Origin: Bifidobacterium aesculapii
GTDB taxonomy: Bacteria > Actinomycetota > Actinomycetes > Actinomycetales > Bifidobacteriaceae
Direction of reading: 5' to 3'
Length of the DNA: 64,000 nt
Assembly (NCBI RefSeq): GCF_001417815.1
Contig: NZ_BCFK01000035.1
Coordinates: 1-64,000 of the forward strand
The stretch's first letter is position 1. Every line of letters starts with the position of its first letter. The position numbers were made by a program, and so were the translations under genes. The notes beneath the pieces were generated by a model. It made no database searches and was not told where the DNA came from. It worked only from the letters and a program-made list of their open reading frames with translations. Below are positions 8,961 through 52,446 of the stretch, piece by piece.

Positions 8961-9003
8961 GGGGTCACCGCATAGCGGGGAATACGGCGGTTTCGCCGGC
9001 GGC

Positions 9004-13398: not shown

Positions 13399-13400
13399 CC

Positions 13401-16566: not shown

Positions 16567-17514
16567 ATGAGGACATCGAAACCGTGGTACGTGCTGGGAC
16601 GTATCGGGCAGGCGGTGCTGGTGCTGTGGGCCGCATACACCGTGTGCTACATCATTCTGAACCTGCTGCCCGCCGATCCGCTGGCCTTGCTCCTGCAGGC
16701 CAAAGGCACCGACATCGGGTCCCTCAACGCCGACCAGATCGCCACGCTACGCCACACGTACGGGCTTGACGCCGGTCCGGTGCAGCAGTATCTGACGATG
16801 TTGCTCGCCGCCCTGCACGGCGACTTCGGCACCTCCTACACGCTGGGCCAGCCGGTACTGCCGCTCATCGCATCCCGCGTGTCCAGCACGCTCGCCATCA
16901 GTCTGCTCGCGTTGGTCGTGGCCGTGGCTCTGGCCTTCGCCCTCGCCTTCGCGGCGGTCTTCACCCGCAGCCGCGTGATTCGCAACGTGCTCGGAGCCAT
17001 TCCCGTGATCGGCATGTCCGTTCCGTCCTTCTGGGTGGCGCTGCTGCTCATGCAGGTGTTCAGCTTCTCGCTCGGATGGTTCCCGTCCATGGGCATGCAG
17101 GGGTGGAAGAGCCTCGTGCTGCCGACCGTGACGATGGCCATCCCCACCAGCGCGCTCCTCGGGCAGCTGCTGCTCAGCGAATTCGACGCCGTGCTGGAAA
17201 GCCCGCAGGCTGTGGTGGCCAAAGCCCATGGCCTGAGCCGCACGCAGGTCATCCTCCACCACGTCGTCAAGAACGCGTCGCTGCCGTCACTGACCATCCT
17301 CGGACTGCTCGTCGGCGACACGTTCACCGGCGCAATCATCGCCGAAACCATCTTCGCCAGGCAAGGTCTCGGCATGCTCATCCAACAGGCCGTCACCCAG
17401 CAGGACGTCCCCGTGGTACAGGGAGCCGTCGTACTGGCCGCCGGTGCGTTCGTCCTCGTCAACCTCATCGTCGACCTGATCTATCCGCTGCTCGACCCGC
17501 GCATCCGCATCTGA
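16567..17514 (+). CDS. ABC transporter permease, DppB type
   Basis: A 315-residue permease. It starts with WYVLGRIGQAVLVLWAAYTV, a membrane helix, then NLLPADPLALLLQ and the family-typical LRHTYGLDAGPVQQYL. The coupling loop is AKAHGLSRTQVILHHVVKNA, and FARQGLGMLIQQAV lies near the end. GAAAGGGAATCCG precedes the ATG. It lies between its binding protein and the second permease with short gaps, as in a standard operon. Confidence 0.9.
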   Translation: MRTSKPWYVLGRIGQAVLVLWAAYTVCYIILNLLPADPLALLLQAKGTDIGSLNADQIATLRHTYGLDAGPVQQYLTMLLAALHGDFGTSYTLGQPVLPLIASRVSSTLAISLLALVVAVALAFALAFAAVFTRSRVIRNVLGAIPVIGMSVPSFWVALLLMQVFSFSLGWFPSMGMQGWKSLVLPTVTMAIPTSALLGQLLLSEFDAVLESPQAVVAKAHGLSRTQVILHHVVKNASLPSLTILGLLVGDTFTGAIIAETIFARQGLGMLIQQAVTQQDVPVVQGAVVLAAGAFVLVNLIVDLIYPLLDPRIRI

Positions 17515-17531: not shown

Positions 17532-18461
17532 ATGACAACCCAACTGACGCTTGACCTGACCCGTCCCGAACCGAACACGCACATCATCGACGAAGTGAGG
17601 AAGACGACGGCCGCAAGCCGCCGCACCGGCCGCGTCACCAAGACGCTGCGCCGCTTCGGCACCCTGCTCCGCAGTCATGTGGTCGCCTCGTTCGCCGCAC
17701 TGTACGTGGCGCTCGTGCTGATCTCGGCGCTGCTGCCCCAGTGGTTCACCCGCGCCGACCCATACGCCACGGCGCCCGCGCAGAGCATGCAGGCCCCGTC
17801 CGCGGCCCACTGGTTCGGCACCGACAAACTCGGGCGCGACGTGTTCACCCGCGTCGTCTACGGAGGCCGCACCACCATCACCGCGAGCCTCGTCGCACTC
17901 GCCATCGCCGTAATCGCCGGTCTGGCGCTCGGCGTGATCGCGGGATACGCGGGCGGCGTCCTCGACGCCCTGCTCATGAGGTTCGTCGACGTCTGGCTCG
18001 CCATCCCCGGACTGCTGCTCGCCATCACCATCGTCACTGCCATCGGCTTCGGCACACTGCCGGTCGCCATCGCCATCGGCGTCGGCATCTGCCCCACGTT
18101 CGCCCGCACCACACGCTCTCAGGTATTGCGCGTCAAGCAGGAGGACTACATCGAGGCGGCGCGCACAAGCGGTTCCTCGGACGCCTCCATCGTCGTCAAC
18201 CACATCCTGCCCAACGCGATCGGGCCGGTCGCCGTGCTCGCCCTGCTCGACTTCGGAGGCATCATCATGGCCGTCGCCACGCTGAGCTTCCTCGGCTTCG
18301 GCGTCAAACCGCCGGAAGCGGAATGGGGCTCGCTCATCAACGACGGCCGCGACTACCTGCTCACCGCGCCATGGCTGTCGATCCTGCCCGGACTCGTCGT
18401 CGTCGCGACCGTGCTCGCCATCACCGTGCTCGGCAACGCCGTCAAGAAGGAGCTGAAATGA
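17532..18461 (+). CDS. ABC transporter permease, DppC type
   Basis: A 309-residue permease with an N-terminal cytoplasmic tail of about 50 residues before the first membrane helix. HWFGTDKLGRDVFTRVVYGG and the coupling loop EAARTSGSSDASIVVNHILP are present. LSFLGFGVKPPEAEWG shows the intact Phe at the position that is an amber codon in the paralogue at 5745. The start follows AAGGAGGCCCGAC. Its TGA overlaps the ATG of the ATPase gene (ATGA). Confidence 0.9.
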   Translation: MTTQLTLDLTRPEPNTHIIDEVRKTTAASRRTGRVTKTLRRFGTLLRSHVVASFAALYVALVLISALLPQWFTRADPYATAPAQSMQAPSAAHWFGTDKLGRDVFTRVVYGGRTTITASLVALAIAVIAGLALGVIAGYAGGVLDALLMRFVDVWLAIPGLLLAITIVTAIGFGTLPVAIAIGVGICPTFARTTRSQVLRVKQEDYIEAARTSGSSDASIVVNHILPNAIGPVAVLALLDFGGIIMAVATLSFLGFGVKPPEAEWGSLINDGRDYLLTAPWLSILPGLVVVATVLAITVLGNAVKKELK

Positions 18462-20188
18462 CCGAAGCGACCACCGCCGCACCCGCCGGTGCACAGCCTG
18501 CGCTGCTCGACGTCGTCGACCTGCGCGTCTCCTACGCCTCCCGCCGCCGCACCGTCGATGCGGTGCGCGACGTGACCTTCGCCGTGGCGCAAGGCGAGCG
18601 CGTCGCCATCGTAGGCGAATCCGGCTCCGGTAAATCCACGATCATCCGCACCGTGCTTGGCATCCTGCCCGACAGCGCGACGACCGCCGGCCAGGTGCTC
18701 CTCGACGGCTCCGACCTGCTCAAGGCCGATGACCGGCAATGGCTCGACGTGCGCCGCACCACCATCGGATTCATTCCGCAGGACCCGCAGACCAGTCTCG
18801 ACCCGACGCTCACCATCGGCCGTCAGCTCGGACTCATCATCCGGCTCAAGGAACATCTTGACGGTGATGCGCTCCAGGCTCGCGTCGAACAGCTGCTTGG
18901 CGAAGCCGGATTCGACAAGCCAGCCCTGCGGGCCCGCCAATACCCGCACGAACTGTCCGGCGGTCTCAAACAACGCGCCCTCATCGCCGAATCGCTGGTC
19001 GGGAACCCGCGACTGCTCGTCGCCGACGAACCCACCAGCGCGCTCGACGTCACCGTGCAGAAGGAGATACTCGACCGCATCGACGAGCTCGTGCGCGCCA
19101 AAGGACTCGCACTGCTCATGGTCACGCACGACCTCGCCGTTGCCGCGGACCGTGCCGACAGGATCGTCGTCATGCGCAACGGTGAAATCGTCGAACAGGG
19201 CACCGCCTCCGCCATCATCGCGCACCCGCGGCAACGGTACACGATCGACCTGTTCGAGGCGGCGCCCGCGCACCGCCTCGACGAAGCCTCCGCGGCCGGT
19301 GCTTCCGCTTCCGCGGCGGCGGACACCGAAGCGGAAGAGGCGGACGACGCCGCGACGGACGCGACACGGAATGCGGCCGTGCGCTGGCATGGCGTGACCA
19401 AACAGTTCACGCTGCGCCACGGCCAGACCCGCACGGCCACCACCGCAGACGGGTCTGGTGCCCGCGAGTCCCGCACGTTCACGGCGGTCGACGATGTGAC
19501 GCTCAGCGCGCCACGCGGCGAAACGCTCGCCATCGTCGGCGAATCCGGTTCCGGCAAATCCACGTTGCTGAAGATTGCGCTCGGACTCGAAAAACCCGAA
19601 CACGGCTACGCGGAAGTCAACGGCGTCAACATCACCAAGACCGGCGGCCGTGCGCTGCGCGAAGCGCGCCGCACCTTCCAGCTCGTGCAGCAGAACCCGT
19701 TCGGTTCGCTCGATCCGACCAAGAAGATCTCCTCAATCGTCGCCGAGCCTCTCAACGCGTTCCATGAAGGCGACCGTGCGTCGCGCCGCCGTCGCGTCGC
19801 GGAGCTCATCGACCGCGTCGCACTGCCGGCGAACGTGCTCGACGCGAAACCCAAGGAACTGTCCGGCGGGCAATGCCAGCGCGTCGCCATCGCACGAGCG
19901 CTCGCCATCCGCCCGAACACGCTGTTCCTCGACGAGCCGGTGTCCGCGCTCGACGTGACCGTCCAATCGCAGATCATCGATCTGCTCATCGACCTGCAGC
20001 ACGACTTGGGATTGAGCTACGTGTTCGTCACGCACGACCTGTCCGTCGTCTCGCAGATCGCGCACCGGGTGGCCGTCATCGAACACGGCAGACTCGTCGA
20101 GCAGGGCCCGGTCGGCCGGGTGCTCACGCACCCCGCGCACGACTACACGAAGCGGCTGCTCGCCAGCGTTCCGGGCCATCACAGGTGA
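18458..20188 (+). CDS. Fused dual ABC ATPase for peptide-type transporter (DppD-DppF fusion)
   Basis: A 576-residue protein made of two complete ABC ATPase domains joined by an acidic Ala/Glu/Asp linker at roughly residues 275-305. The first half has GESGSGKST, FIPQDPQTSLDP, a signature that reads LSGGLKQRALIAESL, and VADEPTSALDVT. The second has GESGSGKST, LVQQNPFGSLDPT, LSGGQCQRVAIARAL and LFLDEPVSALDVT. It thus supplies both nucleotide-binding subunits on one chain. The start overlaps the permease stop by four bases. The fusion contrasts with the separate ATPases of the 5.9-7.6 kb operon. Confidence 0.92.
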   Translation: MTEATTAAPAGAQPALLDVVDLRVSYASRRRTVDAVRDVTFAVAQGERVAIVGESGSGKSTIIRTVLGILPDSATTAGQVLLDGSDLLKADDRQWLDVRRTTIGFIPQDPQTSLDPTLTIGRQLGLIIRLKEHLDGDALQARVEQLLGEAGFDKPALRARQYPHELSGGLKQRALIAESLVGNPRLLVADEPTSALDVTVQKEILDRIDELVRAKGLALLMVTHDLAVAADRADRIVVMRNGEIVEQGTASAIIAHPRQRYTIDLFEAAPAHRLDEASAAGASASAAADTEAEEADDAATDATRNAAVRWHGVTKQFTLRHGQTRTATTADGSGARESRTFTAVDDVTLSAPRGETLAIVGESGSGKSTLLKIALGLEKPEHGYAEVNGVNITKTGGRALREARRTFQLVQQNPFGSLDPTKKISSIVAEPLNAFHEGDRASRRRRVAELIDRVALPANVLDAKPKELSGGQCQRVAIARALAIRPNTLFLDEPVSALDVTVQSQIIDLLIDLQHDLGLSYVFVTHDLSVVSQIAHRVAVIEHGRLVEQGPVGRVLTHPAHDYTKRLLASVPGHHR

Positions 20189-20258: not shown

Positions 20259-21296
20259 ATGTCCGAATGGAGCAAGATCGACAGGCTGAACGCGGTCTTC
20301 AAAGGGGAGAAGGCCGACCGTCCGCCGGTGAGCTCGTACACGCACGAAGTCGCCGCGGAACGCAACGGCGACGACCTCGTCGCGGCCACGCTGCGCAACG
20401 CCCGCACATGGGATTGGGACTGGATCAAGCTCAACCCGCGCACCGTGCACTACGCCGAGGCGTGGGGCAACGAATACGACTACGACGATTACCCGGTGCC
20501 GTTCCTGCCGATTCCGGCGCAGAAGAAGGCGCTCGTCAACACGCCCGACGACCTGTGGAAGGTGAACGAGCTCGACATCGCCGGCAACGCGCCCATCGAG
20601 GAACAGCTCGACGTGATACGCAAGGTCAAGGAGGGCGCGCCCGATACCCCGGTGTTCGCCACCCTGTACTCGCCGATCAACGTGCTCAGCAAGATCGCCG
20701 GCCTGCCGCTCGCCCCCGGCCTTCCCGCACCGGGCTCCACCACTACGCTCACCATCCACGACCTGTTCCGCGAGAACCGGGCCGGCGTGCACCACGCGCT
20801 GCACGCGATCGCCGAGACGCTCGCCAAGTACGCCGAGGCGCAGAAGGATGCCGGCGCGGACGGGCTCGTGTTCGTCGTGGCCGGCATCACCAACCCCGGT
20901 TTCCTGAGCGAAGCCGAATACAACGAGTTCTCCCGCCCCTACGACGACATCGAGCTCGAAGGCGCCGACGGACTGCTGCGCATCGTGCACACATGCGGCG
21001 CCGAATCGCATCCGCAGTGGTTCCAGGAGTTCCCGCTCGAAGGCATCAACTGGGACCACGAGGATCCCACCAACCCCGGCATCGACGTGGCACTGAACAA
21101 GACCAAGGTCGGCGGTGTCAACCACAACCTGCTCGCCCAAGAGCCCACCGCCGAAGTGCTCAACAAGATCCGCTCGGAGGTCACCGAGGCGCGCAAGGCC
21201 ACCGGCGACGTGCTCGTCGTCGCGCCGACCTGCTCCGTCTCCTCCAAGGCGTCCCACGAGGCGATCGCCGCATACAAGGAAGCAGCCACCGCCTGA
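20259..21296 (+). CDS. URO-D-superfamily protein with zinc-methyltransferase HxC...C motif (paralogue 1)
   Basis: A 345-residue TIM-barrel-type protein of the uroporphyrinogen-decarboxylase superfamily. It has RTWDWDWIKLNPRTVHYAEA near residues 49-68 and then His244-x-Cys246 (HTCGAES) and Cys325 (APTCSVSS). The spacing HxCx(78)C matches the zinc-binding triad of MtaA/MtbA/CmuA-type methyltransferases and MetE, which true HemE enzymes lack. No heme genes are nearby. I therefore infer a thiol- or cobalamin-linked methyltransferase rather than a decarboxylase. It begins 70 bases after the fused ATPase with AAGGGGGAAACC before the ATG. A diverged paralogue lies at 27219-28268. Confidence 0.7.
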   Translation: MSEWSKIDRLNAVFKGEKADRPPVSSYTHEVAAERNGDDLVAATLRNARTWDWDWIKLNPRTVHYAEAWGNEYDYDDYPVPFLPIPAQKKALVNTPDDLWKVNELDIAGNAPIEEQLDVIRKVKEGAPDTPVFATLYSPINVLSKIAGLPLAPGLPAPGSTTTLTIHDLFRENRAGVHHALHAIAETLAKYAEAQKDAGADGLVFVVAGITNPGFLSEAEYNEFSRPYDDIELEGADGLLRIVHTCGAESHPQWFQEFPLEGINWDHEDPTNPGIDVALNKTKVGGVNHNLLAQEPTAEVLNKIRSEVTEARKATGDVLVVAPTCSVSSKASHEAIAAYKEAATA

Positions 21297-21317
21297 GCTC
21301 CATCATCCGCGACGCTC

Positions 21318-21345
21318 GAGGACGGCCGCAACCGTCGCCGTCCTC
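21318..21345 (+). terminator. Hairpin after URO-D paralogue 1
   Basis: GAGGACGGC and GCCGTCCTC form a perfect nine-base-pair stem with a ten-base loop, about 20 bases after the stop codon. No U-run follows, so it may be a weak terminator or an mRNA 3' end element before the next gene. Confidence 0.5.
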
Positions 21346-21443
21346 GCGTCGCCACCGATATCGCATCCTCGCCAACGCAACAACGCAACCAACACGTCCG
21401 AATCAACCGAACCACCCCCACATCGATCCACAGGAGAAACACC

Positions 21444-22307
21444 ATGACCTACTTCATCACCGGCGCCACCGGCCACTACGGATCCGCCGTCGTGCGCGAA
21501 CTCATCGCACTCGGCGTTCCGGCCGACCAGATTGTCGCAGCCGGCCGCAACAACGACAAGCTCGCCGCGCTCAAGACGGAACTCGGCGTCGCCACCGCAC
21601 AAGTCGACAACGATGACGCGGCGGCGCTCGACAAGGCTCTGGACGGTGTCGACAAAGTCCTTCTCGTCTCCGGCGTCGACTTCTCCAAGCGCGCCCAGCA
21701 GCATCGCAACGTCATCGACGCCGCCAAGAAGAACGGCGTCAAGCTCATCGCCTACACGTCCGTGCTCAAGGCGGACACCTCGCCGCTGCTCGTCGCCGTC
21801 GACCATCGCGCCACCGAAGCCTACCTCGAGCAGGCCGGCGTGCCCTATGTGAGCCTGCGCAACACCTGGTACGCCGAGAACTTCATCGACGAGGTCAAGC
21901 AGGCAGGCGCGAGCGGCGTGCTCGAAACCGCCGCCGGCGACGGCGCCATCGCCGCGGCGTCCCGTCCCGACCTCGCCGCAGCGGCAGCCAAGGTGCTGTT
22001 CGACGGCACGCTCGTCAACGCGACTCTCGAACTCGGCTCCGACACGACATTCACCTACGCCGATCTCGCGCGCATCGCCGGTGAGATCTACGGCAAGGAA
22101 GTCACGTTCAAGCCGGTCTCCGTCGAACAGCGCGGCGCCGACCTCGCCGCCGCCGGCGTACCGCAAGGTGGCATCGACTGGATCACCAAACTCGACGGCG
22201 ACATCGCCGCAGGCGCGCTCGCCGGCCCGACCGGAGGCCTCTCCGCCGTGATTGGGCGCGCGCCGCAGACCATCGAGGACGTGCTCAAGGCCGCGCTCGC
22301 CGACTGA
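21444..22307 (+). CDS. NAD(P)-binding NmrA/QorB-like oxidoreductase
   Basis: A 287-residue atypical short-chain dehydrogenase of the NmrA / quinone oxidoreductase 2 group. The dinucleotide-binding motif GATGHYGSAVVRELI is at residues 7-21, followed by VAAGRNNDKLAAL. LRNTWYAENFIDE in the middle and the C-terminal PPQTIEDVL-like end (here APQTIEDVLKAAL) fit QorB. It probably reduces a quinone or reactive carbonyl with NADPH in the cytosol. The ATG follows CAGGAGAAACACC. It is the second gene of a four-gene plus-strand run with URO-D, GNAT and SDR genes, but hairpins separate them, so co-transcription is uncertain. Confidence 0.8.
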   Translation: MTYFITGATGHYGSAVVRELIALGVPADQIVAAGRNNDKLAALKTELGVATAQVDNDDAAALDKALDGVDKVLLVSGVDFSKRAQQHRNVIDAAKKNGVKLIAYTSVLKADTSPLLVAVDHRATEAYLEQAGVPYVSLRNTWYAENFIDEVKQAGASGVLETAAGDGAIAAASRPDLAAAAAKVLFDGTLVNATLELGSDTTFTYADLARIAGEIYGKEVTFKPVSVEQRGADLAAAGVPQGGIDWITKLDGDIAAGALAGPTGGLSAVIGRAPQTIEDVLKAALAD

Positions 22308-22316
22308 GCGCATCGA

Positions 22317-22350
22317 CGTCGGGCCGCGCGGCGATTCGTGCGGCCCGACG
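22317..22350 (+). terminator. Hairpin after the NmrA/QorB-like gene
   Basis: CGTCGGGCCGC and GCGGCCCGACG make a perfect eleven-base-pair stem around a 12-base loop, ten bases after the stop codon. It lacks a clear U-tract but is strong enough to mark a transcript end. Confidence 0.6.
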
Positions 22351-22388
22351 CGAGTATCCGATACGCATGCGAAAGAACGGGGAACGAT

Positions 22389-23243
22389 ATGGTGGACATC
22401 GTGGAAGCCGCACCGGAACAGTACGGGGACGTCGCCGACGCGCTGGTGGACGCCTTCGGCTCGACCATCGAACTGTCGCCGCTCTACGAGGCCGACCTGC
22501 GCGACGTCGAACGGCACGCGAAGGAATACCGCATCTGGACAGCGCAGGAAGAAGGCGACATCGCCGGCGTGGTCCTGACTCCGCGCGGCGTGCTCGGCGA
22601 CGCCGACGCGCTCGCCTTCACACGTTCCGGCGAACGTGAGTTCCGCCAACTCGCCGTCCGACCGCAATACCGGGGTCGTGGCGTCGCCCGCGCGCTCATC
22701 GACCATGCTGTGCGGTCCATCGGCGCGCTCGGCATCGGCACGGTGGAGATTCACACCGGACTGCGCATGGTCTCCGCGCGGCGGCTGTATGAATCGTATG
22801 GGTTCACGCGCAGGCCGGAACGTGAGACATTCGTCGTGGATGGCGGCTACCGGATCGTCACCTACACGTACCGGATACCGGAGCGGTACGTCGCGCATGA
22901 TCCAGTGGTGGACGAATGGGAACGTACGCGACCATACCGCGGCGACGCCGTCGCGGACGGTCCCGGTTCCATCGCGGGTTTCACGAACGCGTTGGACCGT
23001 GCGGGACTCGGCTGCATCGTGTCGACTGATCCGGACGACATCGCGCGCTACGAGTTCCACCGCAGCGCGGCCGACGAGGAGCACGGACTCGCCGTCGCCT
23101 GGCCCGACACCAGCGAACAGGCGGCTATACTGCGCCGCGTGGCGGAGCGCTACGGCGTGCCGGTCACGCGCTGGCGTAACGGGTCCTTCACGTTCGAGCC
23201 TCCCGCGCGCAGTGGGCTCATTGTGGTCGGCGAGGCGGCCTGA
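22389..23243 (+). CDS. GNAT-family N-acetyltransferase
   Basis: A 284-residue protein. The first 160 residues form a GNAT domain with the acetyl-CoA loop RQLAVRPQYRGRGVARALI and the late SARRLYESYGFTRRP. The remaining 120 residues are not recognisable and are rich in Asp, Arg and Ala; they may be a degenerate second domain. The ATG at MVDIVEAAPEQ follows GGGGAACGAT. A longer frame upstream has no ribosome site. The acetyl acceptor is unknown. Confidence 0.8.
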   Translation: MVDIVEAAPEQYGDVADALVDAFGSTIELSPLYEADLRDVERHAKEYRIWTAQEEGDIAGVVLTPRGVLGDADALAFTRSGEREFRQLAVRPQYRGRGVARALIDHAVRSIGALGIGTVEIHTGLRMVSARRLYESYGFTRRPERETFVVDGGYRIVTYTYRIPERYVAHDPVVDEWERTRPYRGDAVADGPGSIAGFTNALDRAGLGCIVSTDPDDIARYEFHRSAADEEHGLAVAWPDTSEQAAILRRVAERYGVPVTRWRNGSFTFEPPARSGLIVVGEAA

Positions 23244-23283
23244 ACGGATTTGATGGACGGAAACGACGTAAGGAGGAGTGCAG

Positions 23284-24045
23284 ATGAGCGAGACGGAGAC
23301 GACGCCGGAGACGATACCGGAGACGAAGCGTCATGACGAACGGCGCACGGCCGTCGTCACCGGGGCGAGCGGCGGCGTGGGCGGCGCGTTGGCGCGACTG
23401 CTCGCCGCGCGCGGGTGGCGTGTGATCGCGCCGGTGCGCTCGCAGGACGCCCTGCGCGAGTTGAACGCCATCGACGGTGTCGAGGCCGAACCGCTCGACT
23501 TGTCGGACGGCGAGGCGGTGCAGCTCTGGGCGGAAGGCGCCGCACGGCGTCTCGACCGTCTGGACCTGCTGGCGCACGTCGCTGCGGTCGGCCCCACGGG
23601 CCGTGCGGTGGATGCTGATCTCGACCTGTGGCGGGCGACGCTGGCCGTGAACGTCATCGCTCCGGCGACGTTGACGGCCGGTCTCATCGTGCCGATCCGC
23701 GCGGCGCGCGGCACCGTCGTCTTCGTGAACTCCGGCGCGGGCACGCGCGGCGTGCCGAGCCACGGCGTCTACGCCGCGTCCAAGCACGCGCTGCGCGGCT
23801 ACGCGGACACGCTGCGTCTGGAGGAGTCCGCCAACGGCGTGCGGGTGAGCACCGTCGCACCCGGCCCGATGGATACGAAGATGCTGCGCGACGACCATAC
23901 GTGGGGCGATTTCCGTCACGAGGACGTCATCGACCCGACGAGCGTGGCCGATGCGATCGCATGGGTGGCCGACGCCACCCCGGACGTGCAGATCACCAAC
24001 ATCGACGTCCGCCCGCGCCGGGAGCTGTCCATCAAGGCCAAGTGA
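23284..24045 (+). CDS. Short-chain dehydrogenase/reductase
   Basis: A 253-residue classical SDR. The cofactor motif TGASGGVGGALARLLA starts near residue 21. NSGAGTRG is followed by the catalytic YAASKHAL (Tyr-x-x-x-Lys), and TVAPGPMDTKML is the typical segment after the active site. The start ATG has GGAGG seven bases before it; a GTG two codons upstream would leave too short a spacing. The gene is followed by a strong terminator, closing the four-gene run that begins with URO-D paralogue 1. Substrate unknown. Confidence 0.85.
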   Translation: MSETETTPETIPETKRHDERRTAVVTGASGGVGGALARLLAARGWRVIAPVRSQDALRELNAIDGVEAEPLDLSDGEAVQLWAEGAARRLDRLDLLAHVAAVGPTGRAVDADLDLWRATLAVNVIAPATLTAGLIVPIRAARGTVVFVNSGAGTRGVPSHGVYAASKHALRGYADTLRLEESANGVRVSTVAPGPMDTKMLRDDHTWGDFRHEDVIDPTSVADAIAWVADATPDVQITNIDVRPRRELSIKAK

Positions 24046-24076
24046 TCCGCACAAACGTAAGTGACCCACATGCCAA

Positions 24077-24122
24077 CGACGGGGAGGGGCCGGTACCGCG
24101 AATCGGTACCGGCCCCTCCCCG
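24077..24122 (+). terminator. Strong terminator hairpin after the SDR gene
   Basis: GGGGAGGGGCCGGTACCG and its exact complement CGGTACCGGCCCCTCCCC enclose a short loop (CGAAT). This 18-base-pair GC-rich stem lies about 30 bases after the stop. Little U follows it. Confidence 0.85.
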
Positions 24123-24365
24123 TCTGCGCTGGTTTGCATCGGCCTTATCTGCGCGCGGCGCCGGCGGTGCCGTGCGCAGAGGCATCGGCGGGTAGTTGCG
24201 GTTGCTTTCCACGCGTAGGAGCGGGCTCATCTCCACCGCGCGGACGCATACCTCGTCACACAGACTGGCGAAGGTTTTTCCCTGCCGGGGTGCCGGTGTT
24301 CCAGTGGGTTGCCATTTTCCTCGCTTACCATGCGGTTCGGTGAAGGGCTTGCGCAGTCGGAATAT

Positions 24366-24460
24366 GAACTTGTGCAATCCTCTGGTGAACCTGCGCAGTC
24401 TGGTGACGAACCTGCGCGATTGGGTTTCGAACCTGCGCAGTCTGGTGACGAACCTGCGCA
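24366..24460 (+). repeat. 21-bp-period repeat array, forward half (five units)
   Basis: The word GAACCTGCGCA, with small changes, begins at 24366, 24387, 24408, 24429 and 24450, so the period is exactly 21 bases. The ten-base spacers between cores are partly repeated too (GTCTGGTGAC twice). Because 21 is a multiple of three, each strand stays open and reads as seven-residue repeats (AQV-containing on the minus strand, EPAQSGD on the plus strand). An inverted array of the same core follows at 24587. Confidence 0.9.
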
Positions 24461-24586
24461 TGGGGGTCGTGGAGGCCGGCTCGTGCCGGGTGGGATGGCA
24501 TCGTTGGTTTCCTTGGTATTCCGGGCTTTTCAAAACATGGCGTACACACTCCAACGCCTTGCACAGGGCTTCTTTCAGCACCCCTG

Positions 24587-24701
24587 TGCGCAGGTCGGGG
24601 CTTGGACTGCGCAGGTTACTGCCCGGATTGCGCAGGTTCGGCCGCCGACCGCGCAGGTTGGCCGCCCAATTGCACAAGTCATGCCCTGAACCGCGCAGGT
24701 T
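24587..24701 (-). repeat. 21-bp-period repeat array, inverted half (six units)
   Basis: TGCGCAGGTT, the reverse complement of the core in the preceding array, begins at 24587, 24608, 24629, 24650, 24671 and 24692, again with a 21-base period. The two halves face each other across about 125 bases. The plus-strand frame through both halves (24309-24689) is open and ends in TAQVTARIAQVRPPTAQV-type heptads, but has no good ribosome site. I do not know the function. Confidence 0.9.
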
Positions 24702-24795
24702 CACGCCAAGAAGGTTGCATGATTCATGAGGGGTCCCGTACACCGGCGGATGGATGATCGAATGGGAACCGCGTAAAGGCATCGAGGATGAACCG

Positions 24796-24981
24796 ATGAC
24801 GACCGCACCGGAACCGGCCGTCATTCACATGCCGGCGAATACGAAGCGCATCGGCCTCGCGCGCGTCACGCGCGACGTGGCATACAGGCCCGGCGCGGCC
24901 CAGCTCGTCATGGACATCATCGCGCCGCAGAGCCTCGGCGACGATGGCGATCGGCGCTACCGCACGATCGAGCGATGGGTG
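24796..24981 (+). pseudogene. N-terminal fragment of an alpha/beta hydrolase
   Basis: The frame starts MTTAPEPAVIHMPANTKRI and continues with VTRDVAYRPGAAQLVMDIIA, which looks like the first beta strands of an esterase-type alpha/beta hydrolase. After about 62 codons the similarity ends, and the frame runs through unrelated sequence to a stop at 25065. No nucleophile elbow, acid or histidine region is present. It is a 5' gene remnant. A C-terminal piece of an alpha/beta hydrolase lies at 10524-10646; whether they derive from related genes cannot be judged here. Confidence 0.45.
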
Positions 24982-25278
24982 GCAGAAGGTTCTGTCGTGC
25001 CTGATACGTGGAATGTGAGTGTACGAAAAGCATCTGCACGAAATCAACGGTATGGAAGTGCCTGATTCTACACGAAATCAACGGTGTGTGGGTGCTGGAG
25101 TGTGGGGTATTGGAGCAGCGCACACTGGAGTGCTGGCCGGTGACGCTCACGCGGCTGGCCCTTCACCGTCGTATCGGGACGAACGGGTGAGGCCCTGTGT
25201 CAGAACAAGCGAGGCCCTGTACCGGAGCCGCCGGTACAGAGCCTCATCCGCGTGCGCCGGTGCGCACCGCGCCGCCGC
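24982..25278. other. Non-coding spacer with a short direct repeat
   Basis: After the hydrolase fragment there is a 15-base direct repeat CACGAAATCAACGGT at 25037-25051 and 25071-25085, then the terminator of the VOC gene. A further short direct repeat GAGGCCCTGT flanks that terminator. I see no gene. The repeat might be a recombination scar marking the end of a deletion that removed the hydrolase 3' part. Confidence 0.4.
25212..25244 (-). terminator. Terminator hairpin of the VOC gene
   Basis: AGGCCCTGTACCGG and CCGGTACAGAGCCT pair over 14 positions with one mismatch around a five-base loop, 35 bases after the minus-strand stop codon. It can act on either strand. Confidence 0.7.
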
Positions 25279-26046
25279 TCACAGGCTGCGGAAGCGCGCC
25301 TTGCCGATGGTCACGTCGAAGGACTTGCCGGCGGGCGCCTCATACTGCAGTTCGGTGATCGAGTTGCGGCCGCCGCGCACGAAACGCCACACGCGGCCCT
25401 CGCCTACGTTGAGGTCGATGAAACCGTCGCCGTCCGTGCGCTCCAGGTCGAACACGTCCGACCAGTGCGCGGCCACGGCTTCCGGATCAGGCACTTCGAA
25501 CAGCGCGCGGCGCGTGTTCACCTCGCCGATGGCGTGCTGGTGCAGCAGGCCGCTCTTCTCGTAACGGGCCTCCTGTTCGGCCTCGCTTGCGCCCCAGTCG
25601 ATGACGAACGGGTAGCGCAGCCCCTGGTCGTCGCCCTTGATCCACAGCAGCTGCCAGCGGATCTCCTCGCCTTCCGCGGTGGTGCGGTTGCCCGGCACGA
25701 TCTCACCCAGATCGAGCCCCTTGGCGCGCAGACGTTCGGCGGCGGCCTCGATGCCGTGCACGTGCAGGGCCGGGCGGTAGAATCCTACGAAATCGGGCAG
25801 CAGTTCGCCCGCCTCGTGGAAGATGAGCCCGCGGTCAGGCGTTTCCGCCAACGCCTCGTCACGGCTGTACAACGTGAGGAACTCGAGGTAGTTGTCGGTG
25901 AAGTAGGCGAGCGAGTTCTCGGTGCCGTGCCCCACGTGCTTGCCGCCGTAGCGGGCGGTGAGACCCGCCTTGACGAACGCCTGCTCGGCCGCCTTCAGAT
26001 CGTTGACGAACTCGACGGTGTGGTCCCATGTGAATTGCTGTGCCAT
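25279..26046 (-). CDS. VOC-family (glyoxalase-like) protein
   Basis: A 255-residue protein resembling the Glyoxalase_3 group of the vicinal-oxygen-chelate superfamily. The N-terminus WDHTVEFVNDLKAAEQAFVK with TARYGGKHVGHGTENSLAYF and YLEFLTLYSRDEA is characteristic: the conserved His and Glu residues are candidate metal ligands. PFVIDWG lies mid-protein, and the second half repeats the fold. Reaction and substrate are unknown; these proteins often act on reactive carbonyls or as dioxygenase-like enzymes. AAGGAGG lies 13 bases before the ATG. It follows the reductase gene on the same strand by 49 bases and is probably co-transcribed. Confidence 0.75.
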   Translation of the reverse strand: MAQQFTWDHTVEFVNDLKAAEQAFVKAGLTARYGGKHVGHGTENSLAYFTDNYLEFLTLYSRDEALAETPDRGLIFHEAGELLPDFVGFYRPALHVHGIEAAAERLRAKGLDLGEIVPGNRTTAEGEEIRWQLLWIKGDDQGLRYPFVIDWGASEAEQEARYEKSGLLHQHAIGEVNTRRALFEVPDPEAVAAHWSDVFDLERTDGDGFIDLNVGEGRVWRFVRGGRNSITELQYEAPAGKSFDVTIGKARFRSL

Positions 26047-26095
26047 TGTCGTGCGAAACCTCCTTGCAGATTCCTGCGATCCGTTCCCGTATCCG

Positions 26096-26899
26096 TCACT
26101 TCGCGTTCGCGCCGAGCGACGTCGTGCGTTCCACCGCCGCGAGCACCGCCGTCTGCACGGAGGCCGCGAAACCGGTCTTGTTCAGCGTGTACGCCTCGGT
26201 GATGCCCACGCCGCCGGGGGAGTTGTTGATGTTGAGCAGCACCTGCGGCAGCACGTCCTTCTGCTTGAGGAACTCGGTTCCGCCGATGATCGTGTCCAGC
26301 GCGATGGCCTTCGCCACGTCGCGCGGCAGACCGGCGAGCACGCCCGCGTCCACGTAGGCGTCGATGAAATGGTAGACGATGTTCGGCGGGTAGAAGCCGG
26401 TGATGATGTCGATGAGCCGCTCCTCGACGTACAGCACCTTGCCGAACGTGTTGAGGAACGCGTCGACGTCCTCCTGGCGGGCGTTCGCGTTCAACGCGGC
26501 ACCACTGTACCCGTAGTCGACCGTGGTGAGCGTGTTCGGGATGATGCGCACCACGCGCCATCCCTCGCCGAGGCTCTGCTCGAGTTTGGCGATCGTGTAC
26601 CCGGCGACGATGGAGACCACCGTGGTCTTCGCCGGGTCGAAACGTTTCGCCACGGAGGCGGCCACGCCGGCCACGTCGTCCTGCGGGCGCACGGCGATCA
26701 CGACGATGTCCGCATCCGGCGTGTCCGTCGGCTGGGCCGGCTCCACGCCGTACGTGTCCTTCAGGAACGCGGCGCGCGCCTCGGAGATCTCCTCCACGCG
26801 GATGTGGTCCACCGGGTAGGAGTCCGATTTGCGCCGCACCGCCTCGATGATGGCGGTCGGCATGTTGCCTCCGCCGATGAAATACAGATTCGCGCCCAT
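26096..26899 (-). CDS. Pyrroline-5-carboxylate reductase-family oxidoreductase
   Basis: A 267-residue NAD(P)-dependent reductase of the ProC superfamily. The Rossmann start MGANLYFIGGGNMPTAII, the segment VVIAVRPQD, and VSIVAGYTIAKLE followed by VVRIIPNT all match the family. The family C-terminal signature normally reads SPGGTT; here it is NSPGGVGITEA, with Thr replaced by Gly, and the protein is on the short side. It may therefore act on another imine rather than on pyrroline-5-carboxylate. A -35/-10 pair lies upstream, and the VOC gene follows. I would not name it proC on this evidence. Confidence 0.75.
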   Translation of the reverse strand: MGANLYFIGGGNMPTAIIEAVRRKSDSYPVDHIRVEEISEARAAFLKDTYGVEPAQPTDTPDADIVVIAVRPQDDVAGVAASVAKRFDPAKTTVVSIVAGYTIAKLEQSLGEGWRVVRIIPNTLTTVDYGYSGAALNANARQEDVDAFLNTFGKVLYVEERLIDIITGFYPPNIVYHFIDAYVDAGVLAGLPRDVAKAIALDTIIGGTEFLKQKDVLPQVLLNINNSPGGVGITEAYTLNKTGFAASVQTAVLAAVERTTSLGANAK

Positions 26900-26987
26900 G
26901 GGCGCCCCCTTCCTGGCATGTTTCGTATGCTTCCCGTTCCGTCATACCGGAAAACGCGCCGCCGCGCCGCCGTCCGCACAAGGAACG

Positions 26988-27017
26988 CCTATAGGTGTTG
27001 TTGATAGTCGATTGCAA
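26988..27017 (-). promoter_or_regulatory. Probable promoter of the reductase-VOC unit
   Basis: On the minus strand TTGCAA (complement of 27012-27017) and TATAGG (complement of 26988-26993) are separated by 18 bases and lie about 90 bases before the reductase start. The -10 is embedded in the palindrome CCTATAGG. Promoter strength would be moderate. Confidence 0.45.
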
Positions 27018-27018
27018 A

Positions 27019-27036
27019 TCCGCGGCAGACCGCGGA
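27019..27036. promoter_or_regulatory. Dyad in the divergent intergenic region
   Basis: TCCGCGG and CCGCGGA form a perfect inverted repeat around CAGA, between the divergent reductase and URO-D paralogue 2 genes and adjacent to the putative -35 of the former. It is a candidate shared operator. The rest of the 319-base gap (26900-27218) shows no gene. Confidence 0.4.
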
Positions 27037-27218
27037 TGGATAAACCGTTATAAGAAACGTGAGTAAGGAAAAGCCGGTATTTCGTTTGACATGGCTGCCG
27101 CGCATGGGCTTCCATGAGCGGGTGAACGGGACGTCCGGTGGTTTCAGGACGTATCCGAATCGAACATTCGAACAACCGAACAACCGATCATCCGATCCAG
27201 CAGTAGAAGGAGCCGACC

Positions 27219-28268
27219 ATGACGGACCGCCGCAGCGTATTCCATGACATCGTCAACCACAAGCCGACCGACGTGCCGTATCTCGTCGGCGCCTGGCAGC
27301 ACCTTGTCGGTCACGAATACGGGGCCGAGGAGTTCGCTTCCGCCTACGTCGACTTCGTCCGGCGCTGGGACTGGGACTGGGTGAAGATCAACCCGCGCGC
27401 CGTCTACTACGCGGAGGCCTGGGGCTCGAAATACGACAAGGACGACTACGCCGGCTTCGTGCTGCCCAAGCGTGTCTCCTCCGCCATCGAGACCCCGGCC
27501 GACGTGGCCGGCATCAAGGAGCTCGATCCGGAACGCAACGAATACTTCGCCGAGGCGATCGCCGCGGCCGCGCTCATCCGCCAGGGGCTTGAGGACCGCG
27601 CCGTGCTCGAAACGATCTTCTCGCCGTTGAGCGTGCTCCTGCAGATCGCCGACCTGCCGCTCTACCCGGGCGACGACTACGCGACCGGCACGCTCACCGT
27701 CAAGGAGCTCATCGACGACCAGCCCGAAGTCGCCAAGCTCGCGCTCGCCAACATCGCCCACACGCTCGCCGCCTACGCCAAGGCGCTCGTGCGTCCCGCC
27801 TCCGAAGGCGGCGCCGGGCTCGACGGCGTGTTCTACGCGGTCACCGGCACGGTGAGCGAGGACTACTTCGATGCCGCCCGTTACCAGGAGTTCTCCGCGC
27901 CCTACGACCGCATCGTCATCGACGCGGTCAAGCGCGCCAACCCGCAGGCCGTCGTGCTGCTGCACACGTGCCGCGCCGCCTCGCACCCGAACTGGTTCGA
28001 CGTGCCCGGCGTCGACGTGCTGCAGTGGGACCAGTTCCTGCCCGGCAACCCGAAGGCGGACGCCCACTACGCGGCCGTTCCGGTGGCCGGCGCCAACTTC
28101 GAGCTGTTCGCGCCCGGCGGCGACGTCGACAAGCTGCGCGACGAGCTCAAGGAGACCATCGCGCTGCGCGAAGGCAAGCCGTTCCTGCTCGCCCCCAGCT
28201 GCACCGTGCCCACGCCCGCCACCGACGAGGCGCTCGAGGCGCTCGCCGCCACGCGCGTCACCCGATAG
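27219..28268 (+). CDS. URO-D-superfamily protein with zinc-methyltransferase HxC...C motif (paralogue 2)
   Basis: A 349-residue homologue of the protein at 20259-21296. Both share RRWDWDWVKINPRAVYYAEA-type sequence near residue 50, FSPLSVLLQIADLP-type sequence, and the zinc triad, here His249-x-Cys251 (LHTCRAAS) and Cys328 (APSCTVPT), HxCx(76)C. As in paralogue 1, this argues for methyl transfer to or from a thiol rather than porphyrin decarboxylation. AGAAGGAGCCGACC precedes the ATG. It directly precedes a complete Liv-type transporter, so its substrate may be what that transporter imports. No corrinoid protein is seen nearby. Confidence 0.7.
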   Translation: MTDRRSVFHDIVNHKPTDVPYLVGAWQHLVGHEYGAEEFASAYVDFVRRWDWDWVKINPRAVYYAEAWGSKYDKDDYAGFVLPKRVSSAIETPADVAGIKELDPERNEYFAEAIAAAALIRQGLEDRAVLETIFSPLSVLLQIADLPLYPGDDYATGTLTVKELIDDQPEVAKLALANIAHTLAAYAKALVRPASEGGAGLDGVFYAVTGTVSEDYFDAARYQEFSAPYDRIVIDAVKRANPQAVVLLHTCRAASHPNWFDVPGVDVLQWDQFLPGNPKADAHYAAVPVAGANFELFAPGGDVDKLRDELKETIALREGKPFLLAPSCTVPTPATDEALEALAATRVTR

Positions 28269-28395: not shown

Positions 28396-29568
28396 ATGAA
28401 GACATCGATCATCCGCAAGGCCCTCGCGGGTCTTGTCGCCGCCGGCACGCTGCTCAGCGTGTCCGCCTGCGGCCTGCAGGGCGACGCCGCGAACTCCGGT
28501 TCCGGCTCCGACTCGGGCGACACCGTGAACATCGGCGTCATCTACCCGAAGACCGGCCAGTACGCCGAATACGGCAAGCTGTTCCAGCAGGGCTTCGACC
28601 TGGCCGTCGAGAAGGTCAACAAGGACGGCGGCGTCAAGGGCAAGAAGCTCGGTCTCAAGTACTTCGACACCCAGTCCGACGCCAAGCAGGACGCGGCCGT
28701 GGCCCCCAAGCTCGTGGCCGACAAGTCCATCATCGCCGTGGTCGGCGACTACGCCTCGCCCGCCTCCGCCGCCGCCTCGCCGACCTTCCAGCAGGCCGGC
28801 CTCGTGCACTACGGCTTCAACAACTCGGCCCCCACCTTCACCGAGACCGGCGACCACGTGTGGACGCCGCAGATCGGCCAGGACAAGTACCAGAAGGCCA
28901 ACGCTGACATCGTCGCCAAGAAGGCGAAGAAGATCTCCGTGGTCTACATCGAGAACGACTGGGGCAAGCAGGCCTACCAGTACTTCAAGGAGGAGGCCGA
29001 GAAGAACGGCACGCAGATCGTGTACGAGTCCTCCTACCTGCCCGACTCCACCGACCTGTCGCCGATCCTGATCCCGGCGCGTGACGCCAAGCCGGACGCG
29101 GTCGTCGACATCGGCTACGGCCCGGACGGCGCGCTCGTCATCAACACGCTGCGCGACAAGCTCGGCTACACCGGCCCGTACTTCGGCGGCCAGGAGACCA
29201 AGGAGTTCCTCGACCTCGCCGGCAAGAACGCCGAAGGCGCGATCATCACCGGCTCGTTCTCCGCGACCGGCACCAAGGACGCCAAGGCCCAGCAGTTCGT
29301 CAAGGACTTCAACGCCAAGTACGGCAACAACCCCGGCAACTTCGAGGTGACCGCCTACCAGGCGATCATCGACCTCGCCTACGCGGCCAACAAGACCGAA
29401 CCGACCCGCGAGGGCATCCAGAAGGGCCTGCAGACCGTGACCGACTTCCCGCTCTACCAGGGCAACGGCGGCACGTTCAAGTTCAACCTCAAGAACCGCC
29501 GCGCCGACAACATCGAGCCAATCCTGCTCATCGCGAAGGACGGCAAGTTCCAGCAGTACGAAGGCTGA
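28396..29568 (+). CDS. Branched-chain amino-acid-type ABC substrate-binding lipoprotein (LivJ family)
   Basis: A 390-residue type-1 periplasmic binding protein. The lipoprotein signal ends LLSVSACGLQG at about residue 27. The mature part begins VNIGVIYPKTGQYAEYGKLF, contains GGVKGKKLGLKYFDTQSDA and IIAVVGDYASPASAAASPTF, and ends NRRADNIEPILLIAKDGKF, a typical family pattern. GAGAGGGGAAACATC precedes the ATG. It is the head of a LivJ-LivHM-LivGF operon followed by an amidohydrolase. Liv-family proteins also bind amides, urea and aromatic or methylated compounds, so branched-chain amino acids should not be assumed. Confidence 0.9.
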   Translation: MKTSIIRKALAGLVAAGTLLSVSACGLQGDAANSGSGSDSGDTVNIGVIYPKTGQYAEYGKLFQQGFDLAVEKVNKDGGVKGKKLGLKYFDTQSDAKQDAAVAPKLVADKSIIAVVGDYASPASAAASPTFQQAGLVHYGFNNSAPTFTETGDHVWTPQIGQDKYQKANADIVAKKAKKISVVYIENDWGKQAYQYFKEEAEKNGTQIVYESSYLPDSTDLSPILIPARDAKPDAVVDIGYGPDGALVINTLRDKLGYTGPYFGGQETKEFLDLAGKNAEGAIITGSFSATGTKDAKAQQFVKDFNAKYGNNPGNFEVTAYQAIIDLAYAANKTEPTREGIQKGLQTVTDFPLYQGNGGTFKFNLKNRRADNIEPILLIAKDGKFQQYEG

Positions 29569-29676: not shown

Positions 29677-31491
29677 ATGTTTGACGTACTTTTCGCCGGA
29701 GTGATCCATGGCAGCGCCTACGCGCTGGTCGCGGTCGGCATGTCGCTGATCTTCGGCGTCACCAACGTGGCCAACTTCGCCCAGGGATCCATCGTCGCGG
29801 TCGGCATGATGACCGCATGGTGGCTCGGCACCACCGCAGGCTGGGGCATCGTGCCCACATTCATCGCCGTGATCGTGGTCACCGGCCTGCTCGGCCTCGT
29901 CATGAACGTGGCCGTCATCGCGCCGCTCGAAGGGCGCAAGCCCATTGCCGCGCTGCTCGCCACCATCGGCGTCGGCCAGGTGCTCGACAACGGCCTGCAG
30001 ATGATCTTCGGGCCGCAGACCCGCCCCTTCCCGAAGCTGCTGCCCACCTACAACCTCCAATTCGCCGGCGTCCGCTTCGGCACCTCCGACGTGGTGATGG
30101 TCATTCTCGCCATCGTCTCCATGCTCGGCCTGTGGGCGTTCCTCAAATACGGCAAGTCCGGCCAGGCGATCCGCTCCACCTCGCAGGATCCGGAGGCCGC
30201 ATTGCAGATGGGCATCCCCGTGAAGACCATCCGCAACCTGTCCTTCGTGATCGGCTCCGTGCTCGCAGGCGTCTCCGGCATCTTCGTCGGCCTGTTCAAC
30301 GCCAACATCAACCCGATGAACGGTGGCACCATCGGCATGACCGCGTTCGTCGCGGCCACCATCGGCGGTCTCGGCTCCATCCCGGGCGCCGTGGTCGGTG
30401 GCCTCGTGCTCGGCGTCGTCGAGGCGTTTGGCATCTCACTGTTCGGCGACGGCGCGCACGACCTCATCACGTTCGGCGCGCTGCTCATCATCCTTATCCT
30501 CAAGCCGCAGGGCCTGCTCGGGCCGAAGAACGACGTCAAGTCCGAACCGCTCACCGGCACGTTCCTCGGCGGCGGACGCCCCATCGAACTGCCGTGGTGG
30601 GGCAACCTCATCGGCGCCGTCGCGCTGCTCGCCACCCCGTTCTTCTTCTCCGACTACCTCGCCGGCGTGGGCACGCAGGTCGCCATCTACGCGATCGCCG
30701 CCGTCGGCCTGACCATGATCTCCGGCTCCGCGGGCCAGACGATCCTCGGCATGGCTGGACCGTTCGCGGTCGGCGCCTACGCCTCCGCGTTGCTCACCAC
30801 CCAGGCGCACTGGCCGTTCCTCGCCGCCCTCCTCGCGGCCGGCGTCATCGCCGCCGTCGCCGCCAGCATCCTCACGTTCCCCGTGTGGAAGCTGTCCGGC
30901 CACTACGTCGCGATCGCCACCATCGGCGTGGGCGCCGTCATGGTCGCCATCATCCGTCTCGCCGAGCCCATCACCAAGGGTTCGCTCGGCATCCAGGGCA
31001 TCCCGTTCCCCAAGGTGTTCGGCTTCACCCTGTACACGCAGCAGATGATGTACCTGCTCGACATCATCGTGCTCCTGCTCACGCTCGTCGTCGTCACCCG
31101 CCTGCGCTCCACGCATCTGGGCCGCGTGTTCGAGGCCGTCGGCTCCGACCGCGAAGCCTCCGAGGCGCTGAGCATCCGCACCGGCGCATACAAGGCGCTC
31201 GCCTACGCGCTGGCCACGTTCTTCGCCGGCCTCGCGGGCTCCCTGCTCGCCCACCAGTACACGTACATCGACCCGACCATCTTCAACTCGAACATGTCGA
31301 TCCTGATCCTGACGATCATCGTGCTCGGCGGCATGAACTCGCCGATCGGCGCGCTCATCGGCTCCGTGATCCTCATCGGGGCGCCCGAGCTGCTGCGTTT
31401 CGCCACCGACGCGCGCATTCTCCTGTACGGCGTGCTGCTCGTCCTCGTCATCCTGTTCCGTCCGCAGGGCCTGTTCGCCCGGAAAGCCTGA
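29677..31491 (+). CDS. Fused LivH-LivM-type ABC permease
   Basis: A 604-residue membrane protein equal to two permeases in one chain. The first about 295 residues are LivH-like (VAVGMSLIFGVTNVANFAQG, GGLGSIPGAVVGGLVLGVVE). The remainder is LivM-like (LTMISGSAGQTILGMAGPFA, FEAVGSDREASEALSIRTG, LTIIVLGGMNSPIGALIGS). About 15 hydrophobic segments can be seen. GGTAGAGACA is a weak ribosome site before ATG, consistent with lower synthesis than the binding protein. It forms the channel for the ligand of the upstream lipoprotein. Confidence 0.92.
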   Translation: MFDVLFAGVIHGSAYALVAVGMSLIFGVTNVANFAQGSIVAVGMMTAWWLGTTAGWGIVPTFIAVIVVTGLLGLVMNVAVIAPLEGRKPIAALLATIGVGQVLDNGLQMIFGPQTRPFPKLLPTYNLQFAGVRFGTSDVVMVILAIVSMLGLWAFLKYGKSGQAIRSTSQDPEAALQMGIPVKTIRNLSFVIGSVLAGVSGIFVGLFNANINPMNGGTIGMTAFVAATIGGLGSIPGAVVGGLVLGVVEAFGISLFGDGAHDLITFGALLIILILKPQGLLGPKNDVKSEPLTGTFLGGGRPIELPWWGNLIGAVALLATPFFFSDYLAGVGTQVAIYAIAAVGLTMISGSAGQTILGMAGPFAVGAYASALLTTQAHWPFLAALLAAGVIAAVAASILTFPVWKLSGHYVAIATIGVGAVMVAIIRLAEPITKGSLGIQGIPFPKVFGFTLYTQQMMYLLDIIVLLLTLVVVTRLRSTHLGRVFEAVGSDREASEALSIRTGAYKALAYALATFFAGLAGSLLAHQYTYIDPTIFNSNMSILILTIIVLGGMNSPIGALIGSVILIGAPELLRFATDARILLYGVLLVLVILFRPQGLFARKA

Positions 31492-49355: not shown

Positions 49356-49379
49356 GAGAGCGGAAGGGAACACGAAACC

Positions 49380-50264: not shown

Positions 50265-50282
50265 GGGGAGGGGAGAACCATC

Positions 50283-52435: not shown

Positions 52436-52446
52436 AGGGACCAACC

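Follow-up and report, generated by a model that had tools for sequence, protein, structure and literature searches.

The window analysed here, 64,000 nucleotides from the start of the Bifidobacterium aesculapii contig NZ_BCFK01000035.1 (assembly GCF_001417815.1, forward strand), carries two genes for URO-D-fold proteins, which we call A (345 residues) and B (349 residues). Both are members of Pfam PF01208 (URO-D), scoring 79.2 bits for A and 65.9 bits for B over a cut-off of 23.9, and they share 36% identity over 326 columns. Each protein contains only two cysteines, C246 and C325 in A and C251 and C328 in B. A previous sequence-only reading of the window had described a WDWDWxKxNPRxVxYAEAWG block shared by the two, and the block is indeed present in both, as WDWDWIKLNPRTVHYAEAWG at W51–G70 of A and as WDWDWVKINPRAVYYAEAWG in B.

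A and B were taken by that reading as two paralogues. Both are real, but the genome (2.69 Mb in 93 contigs, 99.85% complete) has a third copy of the same family, C, on another contig. At E 0.001, these three are all the PF01208 genes of the whole genome, so it has no HemE-type PF01208 gene, other heme genes not having been searched. The Pfam family is named for a heme enzyme, yet its only members here are A, B and C. In the tree, their nearest kin differ, being found at locus L083 for A (100/100), L074 for C (100/100) and L044 for B (100/97). The tree came with a long-branch warning, and the placement of the A clade and of six divergent relatives is unsure.

Conservation was counted in 94 full-length relatives, 50 from the Bifidobacteriaceae, 6 from other Actinomycetota and 38 from the Bacilli. 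The 44 loci from outside the Bifidobacteriaceae were taken from a set of 77, of which L087–L116, L120, L123 and L127 were omitted as apparent repeats of genes counted already, which were not judged one by one. The His-x-Cys and the downstream Cys first noticed as a zinc triad (H244/C246/C325 in A and H249/C251/C328 in B) are exactly there and are conserved, but a fourth candidate ligand, an Asp (D266 in A and D271 in B), had been overlooked. In B numbering, H249, C251, D271 and C328 are all invariant (94/94). The other invariant positions are R60, E66, Y77, D230, W270 and N277, and W52 and K56 are conserved in 93 of the 94.

The six divergent relatives, all from the Bifidobacteriaceae (L059, L063, L064, L065, L067 and L039:4870-5850), were tallied apart. 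They keep the H, C and C, and have Ala at D271 and Asp at R60, so they form a different kind and likely serve a separate function. Two pieces of a split gene were excluded from the count. This URO-D gene, in genome G143 (L062:9196-9681 and 9900-10259), is followed by Liv-type genes and is probably a decayed copy.

A profile alignment to MtaA (4ay7) places HTC on HIC, WD on VE and PSC on PGC, and the ligand order of H, C, acid and C is common to MtaA and the A/B family. MetE binds its zinc through His, Cys, Glu and Cys, the Glu is displaced by homocysteine binding, and MT2-A has the identical set (PMC539065). The core methionine synthases have H, C, E and C, and one characterised MesB has Asp replacing Glu (PMC7857596). 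Furthermore, the His-Cys-Cys set has been argued to mark S- or Se-methyltransferases (PMC10418091). From the conserved residues, A, B and their relatives are probable zinc enzymes, and we propose that the zinc is bound at H/C/D/C. Their identity as zinc thiol methyltransferases appears very probable.

The predicted models are confident for both A (pLDDT 94.1, pTM 0.93) and B (pLDDT 95.1, pTM 0.93). When structure prediction is carried out as had been suggested, MtaA (4ay8) is the top structural match of both models, with Z 33.5 and rmsd 2.5 over 314 aligned positions for A, and Z 31.4 and rmsd 2.7 over 313 for B. HemE gives Z 31.5 with A and 30.4 with B, so MtaA leads by only about 2 Z for A and 1 Z for B. 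The best Z for MetE is 21.2 with A and 20.8 with B, and MesD (3rpd) gives 21.7 and 20.4, respectively. In a single-sequence search, A ranks MtaA first (3.6e-4).

By the curated scores, A and B fall outside MtaA/CmuA, MetE and MmuM/BHMT. Against the two MtaA/CmuA models they are not members, since TIGR01463 gives 27.4 for A and 20.7 for B with a cut-off of 235.4, and PRK06252 gives 54.5 for A with a cut-off of 244 and does not list B. Neither PF01717 (MetE) nor PF02574 (MmuM/BHMT) matches A or B, PF01208 being their only match at E 0.001, and hhalign against MetE yields 0.8% probability with no usable similarity. The H/C/D/C metal set is not in E. coli HemE, so the former statement that HemE has no such zinc set is true for the one HemE that was compared. 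Conversely, E. coli HemE has an RQAGRY stretch, which we take to be a HemE motif, and neither A nor B has it. A HemE identity was rejected by these two features, sequence distance being undecisive.

No partner of A and B had been seen by the sequence-only reading. This is overturned by the importers, the sulfhydrylase-type enzymes and a near-fixed operon of the Bacilli, all of which are partners. A same-strand importer gene lies directly adjacent, within 400 bases, to 88 of the 94 URO-D genes versus 136 of 1160 other non-transporter genes in the same loci, which were picked around URO-D and come from related species. The adjacency is found for 44/50 in the Bifidobacteriaceae, 6/6 in other Actinomycetota and 38/38 in the Bacilli, and for 1/6 of the divergent relatives and 1/2 of the split-gene pieces.

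The importers of the 88 are 43 Liv, 38 MetNIQ, 3 Dpp, 2 polar amino acid, 1 Pot-like and 1 ATPase, the last being part of a set with an SBP_bac_3 protein (L079). The polar-amino-acid and Pot labels (3/88) were assigned after inspecting the URO-D neighbours. Each copy in the B. aesculapii genome has a separate importer, Dpp beside A, Liv beside B and two BPD permeases beside C. Gene calling used a custom script, and several of the labels come from inspection by eye. Table 1 lists the genes around A and B.

Table 1. URO-D-fold genes of B. aesculapii and the genes around A and B in the window
Feature	Position	Strand	Basis or remark
Solute-binding protein (SBP_bac_5) of the Dpp/Opp-type importer ending next to A	14846..16531	+	PF00496 253.3 bits, scored with start 14837
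Dpp-type permease B	16567..17514	+	by eye from translation; gene cluster c30
Dpp-type permease C	17532..18461	+	by eye; gene cluster c15
Fused Dpp-type ATPases	18458..20188	+	70 bases ahead of A; by eye; gene cluster c29
A, URO-D-fold protein	20259..21296	+	PF01208
NmrA/NAD(P)-binding protein 3′ of A	21444..22307	+	PF05368, PF13460; system membership uncertain
GNAT acetyltransferase	22389..23243	+	PF13508, PF00583, scored with start 22338; membership uncertain
Short-chain dehydrogenase/reductase (SDR) oxidoreductase	23284..24045	+	gene cluster in 19/52 Bifidobacteriaceae URO-D loci
Glyoxalase_3-type protein (Glx3)	25279..26046	-	PF13468; partner kept into the Bacilli
ProC-like NAD(P) reductase (ProC*)	26096..26899	-	PF14748, PF03807; TIGR00112 157.1 bits, under the cut-off of 196.75
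B, URO-D-fold protein	27219..28268	+	PF01208
Liv-type solute-binding protein directly after B	28396..29568	+	PRK15404 E 3.5e-32, under cut-off; solved Liv-type relatives
Fused Liv-type permeases	29677..31491	+	by eye; gene cluster c4
Fused Liv-type ATPases	31501..33357	+	by eye; gene cluster c3
M20 amidohydrolase	33354..34589	+	TIGR01891 334.4 bits, cut-off 153.75
Cys/Met-metabolism pyridoxal phosphate (PLP) enzyme	34719..36014	+	best model O-acetylhomoserine/O-acetylserine sulfhydrylase, 461 bits, under the cut-off of 495.1
C, URO-D-fold protein	L069:13432-14463	-	other contig

A PF01208 gene is present in 43 of 189 Bifidobacteriaceae genomes. The order of URO-D, LivK, LivHM and LivGF is unbroken in 35 of the 52 Bifidobacteriaceae loci, and a Cys/Met-metabolism PLP enzyme is found in 32 of them, an SDR in 19, and Glx3, ProC* and M20 in 10 each. 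ProC* is without the SPAGTT stretch found in aligned ProC proteins. A Paenibacillus copy of it (L131) scores 208.4, over the proC cut-off of 196.75, and so may be a true pyrroline-carboxylate reductase. Stachydrine, a donor candidate prompted by this ProC-like partner, was dropped as unsupported.

In the Bacilli, metN-metI-URO-D-metQ-ProC*-Glx3 runs uninterrupted along a single strand in 33 of the 38 loci, and the shorter order of URO-D-metQ-ProC*-Glx3 is kept in 35. M20 stands immediately ahead of the operon in 23 loci, and a CGS/MGL/OAHS-type gene with M20 in 9. From this operon and the Bifidobacteriaceae loci together, it follows that ProC* and Glx3 accompany URO-D in both phyla, with the importer and the regulator changing. 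A sulfur-amino-acid role of the family is quite probable.

Riboswitches were scanned for in 37 of the 38 Bacilli loci, L160 being left out. In Bacillus canaveralius (L125), an S-adenosylmethionine (SAM) aptamer at 8802-8911 and a terminator-like hairpin at 8932-8957 are followed by the URO-D start at 8989, 77 bases after the riboswitch, and we predict that this URO-D gene is under SAM-riboswitch control. The other four SAM riboswitches (S-boxes), three from Amphibacillus and one from Natronobacillus, precede a CGS/OAHS-type gene and the gene for YxjH, a short MetE-like protein that matches NCBIfam PRK06520. All four loci with this gene pair have the S-box ahead of it and metN-metI-URO-D-metQ after it. 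The B. aesculapii window has no riboswitch at the gathering score, and none at E up to 0.5 within 13000-37000.

At one of the four loci, that of Amphibacillus jilinensis (L132), the gap between YxjH and metN has no terminator-like site on that strand. A Bacillaceae-1 small RNA match lies in the same gap and on the same strand (L132:6771-6837).

The absence of a corrinoid protein near A and B, as stated previously, extends to the whole genome, where PF02310 (B12-binding) has 0 matches at E 0.001. Across the 189 Bifidobacteriaceae genomes PF02310 is over cut-off in none, the Bacilli not having been searched, and its weak matches of 19–25 bits under the cut-off occur in 58 of the 189, mostly in frames near 500 residues. 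Of the methionine synthases that were also to be searched for, PF02574 has no match in the genome while MetE is present. MmuM as a partner was rejected, because PF02574 is missing from this genome; three of the 43 PF01208-bearing genomes (G152, G159 and G160) have both. URO-D as a general replacement of MetE was rejected too, because 40 of the 43 also have MetE.

Three URO-D-bearing genomes of the Bifidobacteriaceae, from Alloscardovia criceti, A. macacae and A. theropitheci (G005, G006 and G009), have no MetE N-domain, MetF or PF02574. Likewise, no MetF, full-length MetE or MetH-length PF02574 frame is found in the URO-D-bearing Amphibacillus jilinensis, Amphibacillus cookii and Streptohalobacillus salinus. 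For the 44 loci outside the Bifidobacteriaceae, the search covered 26 genomes for MetF (absent from 3) and 11 for PF02574 and PF01717, genomes whose completeness is not given. It is plausible that a non-folate donor is the methionine source in these six genomes. Two Alloscardovia loci have a short MetE-like protein of 398 residues (L167:1429-2625 and L168:1489-2685), and G007, which has no PF01208 match, likewise has a short PF01717 protein in a frame of comparable size.

We propose that this family, A and B included, consists of URO-D-fold thiol S-methyltransferases that depend on zinc and work free of folate and corrinoid, passing a methyl group from an imported compound to homocysteine. Taken as a whole, this proposal is evenly poised between right and wrong. 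The adjoining ABC importer would take up a small methylated and probably amino-acid-like compound. The donor may, as a first guess, be S-methylated, for example S-methylmethionine or S-methylcysteine, given the recurring MetQ-type binding protein and the lack of direct sulfur use among bifidobacteria (PMC11540073). A betaine is possible too, and any particular donor that one may name is unlikely to be the actual one.

Judging from the conserved residues, the thiolate of homocysteine would next sit on the His-Cys-Asp-Cys zinc, with the Asp swinging off as the Glu of MetE does. Either the sulfhydrylase-type enzyme encoded nearby or another source would supply the homocysteine. The methyl group would then pass directly from the imported compound to the sulfur to make methionine, no corrinoid partner having been found in the family. 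ProC*, Glx3 and M20 may process the remainder or release the donor. For the direction alone, from donor to homocysteine, the balance is again level.

That the triad is a zinc site and that a methyl group moves to or from a thiol, perhaps that of homocysteine, had been suggested already. Both proposals gain support from the ligand set in 94/94 relatives, the best match to MtaA, the Cys/Met enzymes in 32/52 loci and the predicted SAM-riboswitch control of one relative. We consider only tentatively, and with somewhat more doubt than belief, that an unrecognised folate- and corrinoid-independent methionine-forming family of URO-D proteins exists in the Bifidobacteriaceae, other Actinomycetota and Bacilli and has been re-paired with at least five kinds of importers.

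Several results weigh against the methyl transfer to homocysteine as proposed. The B. aesculapii genome has both MetE and MetF. PF01208 is not enriched where MetE is missing, with 3/30 of the MetE-less versus 40/159 of the MetE-bearing Bifidobacteriaceae genomes, and two of the 40 (G059 and G088) have the divergent kind only. A short PF01717 (MetE-like) protein exists in all six MetE-lacking URO-D genomes and a 359-residue PF02574 frame in both Amphibacillus genomes. Since these proteins persist, methionine synthesis there is not attributable to URO-D.

The regulatory evidence also has its contrary side, as the S-box is found in only 5 of the 37 Bacilli loci scanned. In B. canaveralius, promoter-like hexamers lie at 8745-8773, but such sites are at the chance level for the region (8 versus 7.3 in shuffles). 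The four S-box loci with YxjH have 267–695 bases between YxjH and metN, so the two may or may not be co-transcribed. At the Paenibacillus locus L131, which is of the GntR type, the PLP enzyme fits best as a methionine gamma-lyase, though under cut-off, which would suit a release of sulfur equally.

The sequence searches are adverse as well. The profile search puts HemE (1j93, E 0.0056) above MtaA (0.02), and the single-sequence search with B finds HemE at 6.7e-5 and MtaA not at all. By these measures, sequence distance does not separate HemE from MtaA for this family. Moreover, S433, E484 and D599 of MetE, which we take, partly from PMC7857596, to be its homocysteine-binding residues, are not mappable onto A or B by profile alignment.

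The same zinc chemistry could instead serve sulfur release. An imported S-methyl compound or methionine would be demethylated, the thiol being what is wanted and the fate of the methyl group being of minor importance, and a lyase encoded at the locus would free sulfide or cysteine from it. This suits the lack of direct sulfur use by bifidobacteria (PMC11540073), the MalY-type partners (identified by eye, with the Pfam class I/II aminotransferase fold), those of methionine gamma-lyase type, and the GntR gene that 28 of the 38 Bacilli loci contain, with a SAM riboswitch in 0 of the 27 of these scanned. However, the SAM riboswitch of B. canaveralius and the S-box/CGS/YxjH setting of the four loci indicate methionine supply, and sulfur release seems to us rather unlikely. 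A division of labour is another reading, in which URO-D strips the methyl group and a second protein, YxjH or full MetE, completes methionine. YxjH does stand ahead of metN-metI-URO-D in four loci, all six genomes without full MetE have the short PF01717 protein, and the superfamily includes both demethylating and thiol-methylating members (PMC10418091). Such a two-part methyltransferase is quite improbable with YxjH at only 4 of 38 Bacilli loci and no known methyl carrier found, PF02310 being below cut-off throughout the family genomes.

The closeness to HemE allows one more reading, that of a decarboxylase or another URO-D-fold enzyme that transfers no methyl group and acts on an imported acid. 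For B, the structural Z of HemE is near that of MtaA, and both the search with B and the profile search rank HemE first. Against it are the invariant H/C/D/C, foreign to E. coli HemE, the RQAGRY stretch missing from A and B, and the sulfur-amino-acid context, which together leave this reading very improbable.

Among the known systems, MtaA/MtbA (4ay7/4ay8) resemble A and B in the URO-D fold, the order of H, C, acid and C and the best structural match. They differ in that A and B are far under their curated cut-offs, have importers adjoining and come from a genome where a corrinoid protein was not found. HemE is alike in fold, Pfam family and comparable sequence distance, but is without the zinc ligands in its E. 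coli form. MetE and MesA-D share a zinc set of H, C, E or D, and C and, distantly, the fold, and MesA-D make methionine independently of folate (PMC7857596), whereas they belong to PF01717 and A and B to PF01208 only. MmuM/BHMT (PF02574) have an equivalent of the proposed job, being corrinoid-free zinc enzymes that bring methyl from a small donor to homocysteine, but they are of a different Pfam family and have a three-Cys zinc site (PMC539065).

The MtaA-like proteins (Mlps) of the type 1 mlp gene clusters described by Kountz and Balskus (PMC10418091) are also of the URO-D superfamily with the His-Cys-Cys zinc set, have a proposed S- or Se-methyl chemistry and count methionine transporters among the accessory genes. 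Unlike the A/B loci, those clusters are defined by a corrinoid protein and a Ram activase and belong to anaerobes (PMC10418091). The corrinoid protein needed by an Mlp has no PF02310 counterpart in the B. aesculapii genome, Ram not having been searched for. The main text of PMC10418091 has no occurrence of 'Bifidobacter' or 'Paenibacillus'. More broadly, we recognised no description of a URO-D family without corrinoid, of its pairing with changing importers or of the SAM-riboswitch placement in the open-licence literature, which is weak evidence. The chemistry and the fold are of known kinds.

If the transfer to homocysteine is true, each pair of URO-D and importer would be a dedicated route for methyl from one imported nutrient class to homocysteine. 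Bifidobacterium, Paenibacillus, Amphibacillus and their kin would then obtain methionine from environmental methylated compounds by a route that pathway reconstructions overlook, and the URO-D zinc chemistry would run without B12. The donor is open to direct testing through the near-fixed operon, which comes with its importer and, in places, with a SAM riboswitch.

A repeated motif occurs between ProC* and B, where CCTATAGGTGTTGTTGATA lies at 26988-27006 on the plus strand. The pattern CCTATAGGYGYTGTTKATA has two copies in the window, at 1854-1872 and 26988-27006, with a mean of 0.00 in 100 shuffles, and it was built from those same two sites. The copy at 1854-1872 has an ABC ATPase gene on one side and a second Dpp-type operon on the other. 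The short form [CG]CTATA[AG]G, whose derivation rests on the URO-D genes themselves, precedes 15 of these 55 genes and 4 of 9 ProC* genes. It also precedes 6/41 Cys/Met PLP genes versus 12/360 others (Fisher p 0.006), although 2 of these 6 and 6 of these 12 sites are in an intergenic stretch common with URO-D. A shared regulator site is possible, and the motif is only a lead because the intergenic stretches overlap with those of URO-D and the species are related.

Elsewhere in the window, a BAAT/acyl-CoA thioester hydrolase-type protein is encoded at 7662-8960, behind the second Dpp-type operon, and a relative of it at L074 (11845-13143) stands just before a URO-D gene. Upstream of the Dpp-type operon of A, an FAD-linked oxidase (GlcD-like by eye) is followed by a class I/II aminotransferase at 11989-14657, and the two could take part in 2-hydroxy acid salvage. 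A second Liv-like importer set, free of URO-D, lies at 48057-53148 and by eye looks like a urea transporter.

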